From Rugalucina vietnamica (taxonomy: Eukaryota > Mollusca > Bivalvia > Lucinida > Lucinidae), in NCBI GenBank assembly GCA_964017185.1, contig OZ024873.1, positions 50,826,760-50,890,759 on the forward strand: a stretch of 64,000 bases of DNA. The letters run 5' to 3'. A program made the position numbers and the translations under genes. Below the pieces are notes generated by a model. The model did not search any database, was not told the origin of the DNA, and saw only the letters and a list, made by a program, of their open reading frames with translations. Shown here in pieces: positions 12-18,603 of this stretch (the first letter of the stretch is position 1; every line of letters starts with the position of its first letter).

Positions 12-444
12 CGTTTTTGTAAATTCCTTTTCGGTGCAGATTCACAATTTTCTCAGTTATCCACTGTGGATCATTACAACTATCAATAATTATAGACCCT
101 ATCTTAGCGTTTGGTATTTTGTCTTTATAGTCCTTCATTAATTTAGCAATCTGATGTTTTATCGCCTCACCACAGTCGAACCCGCCCATTTTGATGGGTC
201 CACATTGAGTTGGTGTGTCAGATTTACCATGAACAGGGGCTATTCCAACGACGTACAGATCTCCTTCCGTGAAATCGAATTCGGGATCTGGGGGTACTCG
301 GCAGTCTGTACAAACGGAATTCGGGGGGCATTGTGGCTTATGTATGTTCGGTATTTTGAATTCTTCACCTGTCCGAGGATCGTAGTCTCTCAGATTTTGT
401 TCCTTTAATTCAAAATAGTCCAGCCCTTCCCTATAGCTGAACAC
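12..444 (-). CDS. mGluR-like receptor, exon 5: end of VFT domain 1, linker, start of VFT domain 2
   Basis: Exon 5 (433 bp) of the minus-strand receptor. The acceptor is a pyrimidine tract ending TTCAG before GTGTTCAGC (phase 0, matching exon 4). The likely donor is AACG|GTAAAT at the left edge, leaving phase 1. It first encodes a segment starting VFSYREGLDYFELK that fits the last strands of a VFT domain. A Cys-containing linker follows (QCPPNSVCTDC, near residue 523 of the joined protein), then EGDLYVVGIAPVHG near residue 544, C-GGFDCGEAIKHQIAKL, and AKIGSIIIDSC. Those last motifs are the ordered hallmarks of the amino end of an mGluR-type ligand-binding domain, which domain 1 already used in exons 1-2. 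There is no signal peptide, so this is an internal second domain unless exon 5 belongs to another transcript. The rest of domain 2, the cysteine-rich domain and 7TM would lie beyond the left edge. Confidence 0.75.
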
Positions 445-632
445 CTGAATCGAATAGGGAAAGACGCCTTAAGTTTTGCGAGAAAGCATAATTTGAAGCA
501 TATAAGACACAAAAACGTTACTCTTTTAGAGAAAAATGAGAAAGACAAAATGATGTGTCTCTGCTTTTGTATAGAGACAACCGTTGAATGTTTGTAATTA
601 TCGTTTCCCTGGCAATCTTGAATCCACTACAT

Positions 633-1653
633 GTATATAGGGCTCGTGGGGGGGGGGGTAACTCGGAGGTAATTTTGGTACGGACGTGCCGCCCGATACT
701 TCTTAACAGTATTTTGATTATTTGGCCCCTTTGGGAATATGAGTCTTTGATTTAGACTACACAGATGTAAATTCTTGAAATTGCAGCAATAATGTCTGGC
801 TTTCGCTGCCAGTTTTGTAAAGGGTCACTGATGAAGGTTCATTACCCGAAATTGTACAATATGGCCCATCTTCTTGCTTTAAATGTTTTACTGCTTCCAA
901 AGGATCTAACAATTATTATTATTTGCTATTACTGCAGCTGGTGTTGTGCCGTGTGGCGGCCCTAAAAAGTCTCCCCGTACATCATCCATAGTGCAGATTA
1001 TATTTTCCTTTTGTTCCTTTGGGATCAGTGAATATATTTGGAGTATTTAAAATATTTTGTACGTTAAGAAACATCTTCTTAACAGTATTTTGATTATTTG
1101 GCCCCTTTGGGAATATGAGTCTTTGATTTAGACTACACAGATGTAAATTCTTGAAATTGCAGCAATAATGTCTGGCTTTCGCTACCAGCTTTGTAAAGGG
1201 TCAGTGATGAAGGTTCATTACCCGAAATTGTACAATATGGCCCATCTTCTTGCTTTAAATGTTTTACTGCTTCCAAAGGATCTAACAATTATTATTATTT
1301 AAAACATACCCTATTCATATATCTGGTTATCGAAAAAAGGGACCTATTCATATATCATGCCTTCGAAAAAAGTAACCCATTCATATATTTAATTGCACAA
1401 AATTTTGACCTATACACAATTATATACAAATATTTCGACTTTCTGAGGCAAAAAGTGCTCTTAAACATGGATGTCCGAAAAATTTGGTCATTCATAAACT
1501 AAATATGGAAAAATGGGGCTATTCATATATTTTGACTTGAAAAAGGTAACCTATTCATATATCTGGCGAGGCTGAAAAAGGGGGCTATTCGGGCGGCACA
1601 TCCCTACTACGTCATATATAGGTAGTTACCCCTCCCCCCGAGATATAGGGCTA
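633..1653. mobile_element. Inverted-repeat-bounded element in intron 4
   Basis: The left edge (about 633-697) carries a G-run, GTAACT and then ACGTGCCGCCCGA. The right edge (about 1589-1653) carries TCGGGCGGCACAT, then AGTTACCCCTCCCCCCGAG. Reverse-complemented, the right edge follows the left in the same order, so the pair forms imperfect terminal inverted repeats of roughly 60 bp. The interior has no ORF and holds family-E repeats plus a degenerate array of CTATTCATATATCTGG-like words (about 1309-1590). It looks like a non-autonomous DNA transposon; the family is not recognised. Confidence 0.5.
698..1302 (+). repeat. Family E dispersed repeat, direct pair
   Basis: Positions 698-921 and 1073-1302 are nearly identical direct copies (CTTCTTAACAGTATTTTG ... 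AAAGGATCTAAC). The unit between them carries GTGTGGCGGCCCTAAAAAG and a TCTCCCCGTACATCATCC end. The same sequence occurs in the opposite orientation at about 10830-11190, 14830-15060 and 15170-15600, and in this orientation at 19440-19850 and 19905-20260, with a fragment at 43190-43290. No coding capacity. Confidence 0.8.
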
Positions 1654-1783
1654 TAAGTGTTCTTCTCCCTGTATCTGAAATATGTATTACTTTAATAATA
1701 TTGGGATACTTAATGTCTTTTCTGACTAGATATATATTAAAACACAAAATGAAAAGTATACGCGCTCTTTTAAAAATACATAC

Positions 1784-2734
1784 CTCTTCCATGCATAGTT
1801 TATCTGCATTATCTTTGCATATTTGTTTGTTGTACACAGCATAAGAAAGCACTGCTGGCACCGTATACACAGGATCAGAAGACTTCACTGTAAAGTTCAG
1901 CTCCAGTTTTGGTTCCAGTTTGAATACTTCAAGTCTAAATGGTGCAAAATCATTATCAAAGTCCACAGTGTTTTCAGCGTTTTCGAGGAACTCCAGGTAA
2001 CGTGACTTTGGCTGGTCCACCATGAGCTGTTGACAGTTTATCCCTGAGCAGCTCAAGCTATCGTAAACACCTTTGATGGCCCTTGCTATTGCAAAGGCGG
2101 CTTGTACAGCGTATTGTACAACATAGGGCTGCGGGAAATTAACTTCTACTTCCTCTCTTGTCAAAGCGGCACACACTGTAGCTTGATCAGATAAGTCACA
2201 GTTTTTAACAAGTCCATAAACATCAGAGAGATACTTATTTTCAGTTATTGCAGTTATGTTTCCTAACAAATTGTTCATCCAATAGTCTTCAAATTCTTCA
2301 AATTCTTCAATTTTGCGAATAGGTGGCGTCGCCATAAATAACCCCTTTGTCACATTATTGATGTCTAATCGTTCTTGCTCAACGGACCAATAACCTTCTG
2401 ACGCCAGGATTTTCGGAACTTCATAGGTTGAATTAGGCCTATATATGTCGTTGATAACGTCAAGCAACGTTTTGCCTAGCCGATTACCACCAAATAAGAC
2501 AATTCCAGATATTGGTATCGATCGCGTATGTAGGGATTCTACATTCCGTTTTATTTGCTGGTACATTTGGTCAGTGGTAAGCTGTGGGTCGACCGGAAAT
2601 ACTTCGGGGAAACACGTGTATCTCTGACCGGAAGTTGACAACAGCTGATCGACAGCCTCGCGGCCGTAAGTGTCATCGTCGTGTATGATGGCGACGTAGG
2701 TCCAGTTGACTTGCTGCATAAAGCCCAACATCGT
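1784..2734 (-). CDS. mGluR-like receptor, exon 4: body of VFT domain 1
   Basis: A 951-bp exon (317 codons, phase 0 at both ends). The acceptor is TGTTTTAG|ACG and the donor GAAGAG|GTATGT. It encodes the second lobe and hinge of a class C GPCR ligand-binding domain (ANF_receptor fold). QVNWTYVAIIHDDDTYG matches the family pattern WxYVxxVxxxxxYG and keeps the ligand-contacting Tyr. It continues through a flavodoxin-like lobe (GIVLFGG, KILASEGYW) to YVVQYAVQAAFAIARAI, the conserved helix before the last strands. The Asp-Gly pair of glutamate-binding mGluRs (SDGW) reads SEGYW here, so one acidic contact is conservatively changed. Open reading beyond 1784 is intron read-through. Confidence 0.88.
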
Positions 2735-2759
2735 CTAAAACAAAGTAAAGACTATAATA

Positions 2760-17272: not shown

Positions 17273-17381
17273 TTCGCTTAATCTATTAAATGAGAAATTG
17301 TCAACTGTCATTAAATGGAGAAAAATTACTATATCTATAGTTTAGAGCTAAGTCGACTGCCGTAAAAGCGATCATAGACAT

Positions 17382-17602
17382 TTAACCAATATTTGACGAA
17401 TGGATTTTCCCATCATTATCAATTGGGTGTGTCCACTTCCATTTTTAGGGGCGTCAGGAGTGATTTTAAAATTTTATTCAATTTTTCGATGAAAATTCTC
17501 TAAGCAAACATAATAGCCCCAGATGGGGCTATTCTGTTTGCATCTGGGGCTATTCTGTTTGCCTATTTCCCATAAAAGGGACGCCAGGCTTAAATGAGTT
17601 AA
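17382..17602. mobile_element. MITE family D (piggyBac-like)
   Basis: TTAA at both ends (TTAACCAATATTTGACG ... AAATGAGTTAA). The central hairpin is rearranged, with GGGGCTATTCTGTTTGC repeated twice in direct order. Confidence 0.85.
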
Positions 17603-17873
17603 ACGCGTTTAGCTTACCCACTGCATCGTTCAGGGCATTTTGTTCATGTGATTATACACATATACTGACTGCTTATGCACAGAGAAACAATATAGTGCTG
17701 TAAAATTTGACTCTTTCTGTGTCTTCCTGGCACATTTAAACAAGCAAAAAGACTTCAGTGCGATTGGATTTTTAAATTTGACAAGGCATTGTTACAGAGA
17801 GAAGACGTTAGTTTTGAGTACAATATTATGAATGAAACACTGCTGAGGGACCCCATCTGCCATTTCTCAGTCT

Positions 17874-18237
17874 TTAAGGAACATATAAGCTTAACTTTAG
17901 GAGAATTGTCAGTCGAGACAGGCAGGATCTCTCTCTCTCTCTCTCTCTCTCTCTCTCTCTCTCTCTCTCTCTCTCTCTCTCTCTCTTAAGGAACATATAA
18001 TCTTAACTTAAGGAGAATTGTCAGTCGATACAGGCAGGCTCTCTCTCTCTCTCTCTCTCTCTCTCTCTCTCTCTCTCTCTCTTAAGGAACATATAATCTT
18101 AACTTTAGGAGAATTGTCAGTCGATACAGGCAGGATCTCTCTCTCTCTCTCTCTCTCTCTCTCTCTCTCTCTCTCTCTCTCTCTCTCTCTCTCTCTGTGT
18201 GTGTGTGTGTGTGTGTGTGTGTGTGTGTGTGTGTGTT
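17874..18237. repeat. Triplicated module with (CT)n and (GT)n microsatellites
   Basis: Three direct copies of a ~55-bp segment (AAGGAACATATAA ... GAATTGTCAGTCGA ... CAGGCAGG), each followed by a long CT tract. The last CT tract passes into a GT tract. Open reading frames of poly-LS or poly-RE here come from the dinucleotide repeats. Confidence 0.9.
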
Positions 18238-18380
18238 TCAATGTTGCTTTCAAAGCCTTATTCACAGCGGCGTATGAATGATGTAAAACCGGACACTAGA
18301 TAAGAGTGGCCGCGGTGACTCATTTGACGTTTATTTTTCATGTTTTGATGTCACGCTGTTTTACGCCCTTTACAACTTAC

Positions 18381-18603
18381 CGATTTTCACGTCCGGATCG
18401 AGGAATCCTTCACTATTCAATCGAGAGTAAATCCATTTAACTGCTTCCATGACCTGAACCGAAAACGGATTAACAGTATCACAGTCGGAATTTTCCGATG
18501 AATACAATGAAAATATTCCCTCAACGTAAACATGGCCGTCAAGAACCGTCTCCTGTGACGTTACAAGTTTTATAAAAATTGCAAAAATCACCAGCAACTT
18601 CAT
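18381..18603 (-). CDS. mGluR-like receptor, exon 1: signal peptide and start of VFT domain 1
   Basis: The start ATG at 18601-18603 opens a signal peptide (MKLLVIFAIFIKLVTSQ). DGHVYVEGIFSLYSS follows, then C and NPFSVQVMEAVKWIYSRLN, the class C GPCR pattern GDxxxGGxFxxx...C...xxGxQxxxAMxxAIxxIN. The exon stops at ATCG|GTAAGTTG, phase 1. Joined exons 1-5 give 628 codons plus one base in a continuous frame. By domain order this is an extracellular amino-acid or small-ligand sensor of the mGluR/CaSR type; the membrane part is outside the window. Best name: mGluR-like. The 5' neighbours are repeats, with no clear promoter. Confidence 0.85.

Follow-up and report, generated by a model that had tools for sequence, protein, structure and literature searches.

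The stretch of DNA analysed here (the window) comprises 64,000 nucleotides of contig 5 of the lucinid bivalve Rugalucina vietnamica (GCA_964017185.1, OZ024873.1; bases 50826760-50890759), to which left-flanking DNA was added. The gene under study, here called C5, lies on the minus strand and crosses the left edge of the window. It encodes two Venus flytrap (VFT) domains in series that resemble those of metabotropic glutamate (mGlu) receptors, and by its own sequence the product is a tandem-VFT single-pass receptor and no G-protein-coupled receptor (GPCR). The spliced model has ten exons, all GT-AG and with matching phases, and its coding sequence of 3,297 nt predicts a protein of 1,098 amino acids (aa). 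The window holds exons 1-4 together with the opening 444 bases of exon 5, its left edge cutting the gene after codon 632, and the remainder lies no more than 7.8 kb leftward:

Exon 1, 18381..18603, minus strand: start codon at 18603, signal peptide MKLLVIFAIFIKLVTSQ and the beginning of VFT1; homologous first exons occur at two related loci, C12a and C12b.
Exon 2, 5683..5781, minus strand: part of VFT1 (GLKVHKTCRSITKAKEIAYDIAKNIEGTRRDTV), with homology to C12a; GT-AG, phase 1/1.
Exon 3, 4886..5064, minus strand: part of VFT1 holding the equivalents of mGlu1 Ser165, Thr188 and Asp208.
Exon 4, 1784..2734, minus strand: part of VFT1 with the Tyr236 equivalent and Glu at the 318 position; ends in phase 0.
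Exon 5, 1..444 (window part), minus strand: the whole exon, L008 9904-8751, reaches 709 bases past the left edge.
Exons 6-9, left-flanking DNA, L008 8210-8033, 7789-7652, 5526-5441 and 4658-4510: with exon 10 they encode the remaining VFT2, a Cys stub, a single transmembrane helix and the tail.
Exon 10, contig C5:50819162-50819023: tail ENPYLTP...TTSY, followed by the stop codon.

The signal peptide was assigned by eye and from hydropathy (hydrophobic segment at residues 3-21). We rejected a candidate exon 2 near 10.6-10.8 kb for closed frames or out-of-phase junctions and put 5781-5683 in its place; a DSC/DTC motif search for this exon gave nothing convincing in the window part. Codon-usage scoring for the tail exon found nothing, and the exon was located by reading open segments; it is backed by the shared ENPYLTP, the splice phase and the stop.

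Both flytraps meet inside exon 5, so the join between them rests on one exon and not on a guessed splice. This uninterrupted exon of 1,154 nt completes VFT1, runs through the linker QCPPNSVCTDC at residues 522-532 and opens VFT2, with EGDLYVVG from residue 544. An earlier note on this DNA had proposed that exon 4 joins exon 5 in frame and in phase 0, and that exon 5 completes the first domain, passes the Cys linker and restarts the VFT motifs; the spliced model bears out each of these steps. No signal peptide of its own was seen in exon 5, which begins inside VFT1. Under a simple base-composition model, stretches of 317 and 385 codons without a stop would arise by chance with probabilities of about 4e-10 and 4e-12 at the local GC content. 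One might still suppose two adjoining genes or an assembly join, with VFT1 and VFT2 on different transcripts, given that intron 1 (exon 1 to exon 2) spans 12.6 kb and that the gene model derives from genomic DNA alone. We consider this highly improbable, since the VFT1-VFT2 junction lies within one exon, no gap is crossed and the phases fit throughout. A junction exon like exon 5 is moreover present at C12a and C12b, and at a third relative, C13, the joins of VFT2 to VFT3 and of VFT4 to VFT5 each lie inside a single exon.

The Pfam scan of C5 covered residues 1-1,052 of 1,098, that is, all but the 46-residue last exon. Both halves of the protein matched ANF_receptor (PF01094), at 2.3e-30 (106.3 bits) and 5e-36 (124.9 bits) against a cut-off of 25.4 bits, and exon 5 itself matches this family. 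Among solved structures in the PDB, the best phmmer matches were mGlu8 for VFT2 (7.6e-38) and mGlu1 for VFT1 (1.4e-19). Within the scanned residues there was no NCD3G or 7tm_3 (PF00003) at E<=1 and no kinase or cyclase domain was reported; the last exon adds 46 residues and then a stop. In place of NCD3G, only a short Cys stub (ICEKTDDTCNKIC, residues 987-999) follows VFT2, and beyond it lies the membrane segment, whose best 19 residues (1023-1041) have a mean hydropathy of 3.17. The only other hydrophobic segment in the whole chain is the signal peptide, and it is for this reason that C5 is read as single-pass and, by its sequence, not as a GPCR. The last exon is hydrophilic, carries ENPYLTP and ends in TTSY. 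The earlier note had called C5 a class C receptor and suggested searching the joined protein for ANF_receptor, NCD3G and 7tm_3: the first was found twice and the other two were not, and with one helix across the membrane and a last exon of 46 residues the class C label does not hold for C5, although domain content supports it for two relatives that do carry 7tm_3, C7 and C13.

A search of the genome (1.09 Gb, 47-contig assembly) gave at least seven matches, one being C5 itself and the other six falling at five further loci. Tandem flytraps occur at all five of these loci, so that the earlier proposal of two VFTs in one chain stands both for C5 and for its relatives. Each of the six loci has at least two consecutive ANF_receptor domains, with a short Cys linker of CxxC or CxC core between neighbours. 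Four members (C5, C12a, C12b and C14) combine two VFTs with a single helix, and two (C7 with two VFTs, C13 with five) carry 7tm_3:

C12a, contig 12, 21.685-21.705 Mb: ten exons, 1,202 aa, two ANF_receptor stretches, one helix.
C12b, contig 12, 49.683-49.695 Mb: partial model, one helix exon, tail ENPYLTP...EETSY followed by a stop.
C14, contig 14, 0.15 Mb (152073-153420), plus strand: two VFTs (31.4 and 135.3 bits), one helix.
C7, contig 7:29842719-29848280, plus strand: signal peptide by eye, two VFTs, 7tm_3.
C13, contig 13:30753807-30729500, minus strand: five VFTs and a class C 7tm_3 in one open splice chain.

C7 and C14 were read as open segments, their splice joins not having been worked out. 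In C12a the hydrophilic tail carries YLTP, no NCD3G, 7tm_3, kinase or cyclase domain was found by Pfam at E<=0.1, and the putative signal peptide falls below the hydropathy threshold used. The transmembrane exon of this gene is preceded by two shorter tandem copies of itself (L011 320-800, contig 12, minus strand). The main exon of each VFT in C12b matches ANF_receptor (33.7 and 78.9 bits); exon 2 was not found in this partial model. The two VFTs of C7 score 25.8 bits (VFT1, barely over the 25.4-bit cut-off) and 58 bits, and its 7tm_3 match (4.5e-28) spans profile positions 5-251 of 251; six hydrophobic segments exceed the threshold. C13 has 15 consecutive exons with no stop across 2,759 codons, its 3' end not having been followed to a stop, and, by reading, an upstream signal-peptide exon whose ATG lies at 30753807 is compatible in phase. 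Its five flytraps, scanned as open segments, match ANF_receptor at 2.1e-15, 2.9e-22, 5.5e-27, 9.2e-38 and 1.5e-45, the four Cys linkers between them read CPSTPCSPC, CPGVCMEC, CIGQCAQC and CADNSCPC, and 7tm_3 follows at 1e-24 with seven hydrophobic segments. The last transmembrane exon of C13 occurs as two similar copies separated by about 200 bases, of which the model uses one; they are perhaps alternative exons. We rejected the reading of C13, C7 and C14 as ordinary single-VFT mGlu receptors, as each carries tandem VFTs.

That C7 and C13 have 7tm_3 behind tandem VFTs lends some weight to the view that C5 too is a class C GPCR, whose 7TM (seven-transmembrane) exons were missed, the helix being the first of seven or an alternative 3' end adding the 7TM part. 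Yet behind the helix exon comes a hydrophilic one that bears the stop; its phase agrees between C5 and C12a, as it does by eye for C12b, and C14, in its unspliced reading, likewise has a single helix with a hydrophilic tail. In the 44 kb downstream of C5 on the same strand, we saw by eye no 7TM-like open reading frame (ORF) of at least 90 aa, a length below which exons would escape; the ORFs of this size there include BTB/kelch-like pieces. We therefore regard a missed 7TM domain as very unlikely, and continue to read C5 as a single-pass protein.

Pocket residues are numbered as in mGlu1, the VFTs having been aligned to fragments of mGlu1 and mGlu8. We take Ser165, Thr188, Asp208, Tyr236 and residue 318 of mGlu1 to be the contacts of the alpha-amino acid. 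Across the six VFTs of C5, C12a and C12b, the equivalents of Ser165, Thr188 and Asp208 are kept throughout, that of Tyr236 is kept in five (Cys in C12b VFT2), and position 318 holds Glu in all six, where mGlu has Asp; a Glu is presumably found at this position in the calcium-sensing receptor also. Both C5 flytraps keep all five contact positions, with Glu replacing Asp at 318. Arg78 and Lys409 are kept in none of the six, and C5 has Val (VFT1) and Cys (VFT2) at position 78, and Val (VFT1) and Trp (VFT2) at 409. These two residues are described as critical for glutamate in the available portion of PMC6307864, where class IV mGluRs are likewise said to keep the backbone contacts and hence perhaps to have another amino acid as ligand. 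Because the backbone-binding residues are kept while those for the glutamate side chain are lost, we infer that the ligands of both C5 flytraps would be alpha-amino acids in free form, or their close relatives, other than glutamate. The earlier suggestion that such a chain may bind two ligands is thus upheld at the level of sequence only, in that the alpha-amino-acid contacts are kept in both pockets.

Elsewhere in the family, VFT1 and VFT5 of C13 keep the contact set (VFT1 with Ser for Thr188), as does VFT2 of C14, also with Ser for Thr188. This C14 domain has Arg at both 78 and 409, and with these residues it may be a glutamate-binding member. Alignment gaps leave C14 VFT1 unscored at 165, 188 and 208, and C7 VFT1 at 165. 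A lobe-2 Cys is present in all 15 family VFTs and in both mGlu references; in mGlu receptors we take it to bond to the Cys-rich domain.

A maximum-likelihood tree (LG+I+G4, 435 columns) of 17 domains, namely the 15 family VFTs with mGlu1 and mGlu8, separated the six VFT1s from a group formed by the nine downstream VFTs and the two mGlu domains (ultrafast bootstrap 82). The VFT1s of C5, C12a and C12b cluster together (99), and so do their VFT2s (100). As the VFT1s stand apart from the mGlu and downstream domains, the tandem appears to predate the paralogues. The simplest reading of the tree would be a single ancient tandem event, after which genes were duplicated and the parts behind the array were swapped.

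Considering these results together, we think that C5 is probably a two-site sensor for amino-acid-type ligands other than glutamate, with a single helix, a relay via lobe 2 and an output through adaptors or a co-receptor. Each VFT would close on its ligand, and closure would be relayed along the chain via lobe 2 and the Cys linker, so that one chain might read two ligands simultaneously. The output is the least certain step; because the C5 tail contains no enzyme, it would pass through adaptors or a co-receptor. Adaptor proteins could be recruited to the tail motifs YLTP and C-terminal TSY, or C5 could be a ligand-binding co-receptor that pairs with a 7TM member, for example C7 or C13. We hold these two about equally likely, and single-pass members in general may be ligand-binding partners of 7TM members. 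All four single-pass members carry a YL[TQ]P motif; we take YxxP to be the consensus of Crk-type SH2 domains, and the TSY with which C5 and C12b terminate, in our view, resembles a PDZ ligand.

NPR-C is a single-pass clearance receptor whose short tail has no catalytic domain, and C5 shares this single pass and short non-catalytic tail. C5 might accordingly be a decoy or scavenger that internalises its ligand without signalling. Against this, YL[TQ]P recurs in all four single-pass members though their tails otherwise look dissimilar, which suggests a function of the tail, if possibly an endocytic one, and YxxP is unlike the usual sorting signals, NPxY and YxxPhi. A decoy thus seems unlikely, though less so than a missed 7TM domain, and a two-site sensor with adaptor or co-receptor output remains our preferred interpretation.

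Several observations weigh against that interpretation or narrow it. Architecture, binding and output are all predicted from genome sequence. Corresponding VFTs in C5, C12a and C12b share no more than 25-39% identity, so that the kept residues suggest ligand binding but do not prove it. Within C13, Tyr236 is missing from VFT4, where Ser also replaces Thr188, VFT3 lacks both Tyr236 and the acidic residue, and the contact motif is mostly lost in VFT2, as it is in both VFTs of C7; with the motif lost or incomplete in these domains, not every flytrap of the family need bind. A disulfide between the lobe-2 Cys and the Cys linker, by analogy with mGlu receptors, is putative. The tail motifs are short, TSY ends C5 and C12b only (C12a ends in ATGT and C14 in REC), and in C14 the motif, as EYLQP, sits deep inside the tail, away from its start. 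In the tree, the remaining branches among downstream VFTs are weak (17-65), and the VFT1 rows of C7, C12b and C14 are incomplete.

C5 resembles several known systems in part. It shares with mGlu receptors, the nearest in VFT sequence among solved structures, much of the Cys framework and the amino-acid backbone residues, but differs in having two VFTs and in lacking NCD3G, the 7TM domain, Arg78 and Lys409. Class IV mGluRs also keep the amino-acid contacts and have Arg78 and Lys409 replaced, but they are presented as a sister class of mGluR classes I-III, and the available part of PMC6307864 mentions no second VFT. Venus kinase receptors are invertebrate, single-pass proteins with an ANF_receptor-related VFT and possible activation by amino acids; as far as the accessible text of PMC3703292 goes, they combine a single VFT module with an intracellular tyrosine kinase, whereas no kinase was found in C5. 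Receptor adenylate cyclases of T. brucei match C5 in having two extracellular VFTs and one membrane helix, according to the extract of PMC6027212, but are trypanosomatid proteins with a cytoplasmic cyclase domain, and none was found in C5. Nor were the kinase-homology and cyclase domains of receptor guanylyl cyclases found in C5. NPR-C has a single helix and a short tail but one VFT, where C5 has two.

In ionotropic glutamate receptors, channel helices split the second clamshell, which is also of another fold class; Pfam reported no such split second-clamshell domain in C5. The likeness lies in the two VFT domains of each AMPA or NMDA protomer (PMC4352136, in the part available). The VFTs of the BvgS/EvgS sensor kinases are of a different VFT fold class too, and these proteins differ from C5 in being bacterial, with histidine kinase output. 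Like C5, they carry tandem VFTs (PMC4352136, PMC5573083, in the passages available), and BvgS homologues with one to five VFTs have been proposed to integrate several chemical signals (PMC4352136). For the glutamate-family receptors of animals, the available portion of PMC12716839 gives ANF-NCD3G and ANF alone as the plans that contain ANF; PMC10642201 deals with ionotropic receptors and has no bearing here. We found no animal receptor with tandem ANF-type flytraps in the open-licence literature, among the matches listed; animal protein databases lay outside this search, and unreported machine annotations of such proteins may well exist.

Other features of the window were seen in passing:

22002-23651, minus strand: open frame of 549 codons with leucine-rich repeats (LRR_8, 1.4e-33), upstream of C5.
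27377-28190: short unit repeated in a long tandem array, its minus-strand reading giving LCYLKVGHHAALR repeats.
30741-32028 and 34444-36502, plus strand: two similar adjoining genes with several hydrophobic stretches, 7TM-receptor-like by eye; Pfam scans of three of the pair's four ORFs found nothing at E<=0.01.
40042-41589, plus strand: gene of a fibrinogen-related protein, the second of whose two ORFs matches Fibrinogen_C (9.3e-34).
57399-60635, plus strand: element of the LINE (long interspersed nuclear element) type, with endonuclease and reverse-transcriptase ORFs, by eye.

For the family as a whole, we tentatively suggest a hitherto undescribed group of animal receptors with two to five mGlu-like flytraps in series, which would take several amino-acid-like ligands together and act through a single helix or a class C 7TM domain, as animal equivalents of the bacterial arrays of BvgS type. 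A match to mGlu-like flytraps does not by itself make an invertebrate gene a GPCR. Class C receptors are regarded as obligate dimers of one-flytrap chains; chains of two or five flytraps depart from this plan and allow a direct test of how closure is relayed, and they let one ask whether a single chain is a coincidence detector. With at least six loci in one genome, and single-pass as well as 7TM outputs among them, Rugalucina vietnamica offers a natural comparison of the parts that stand behind the array.

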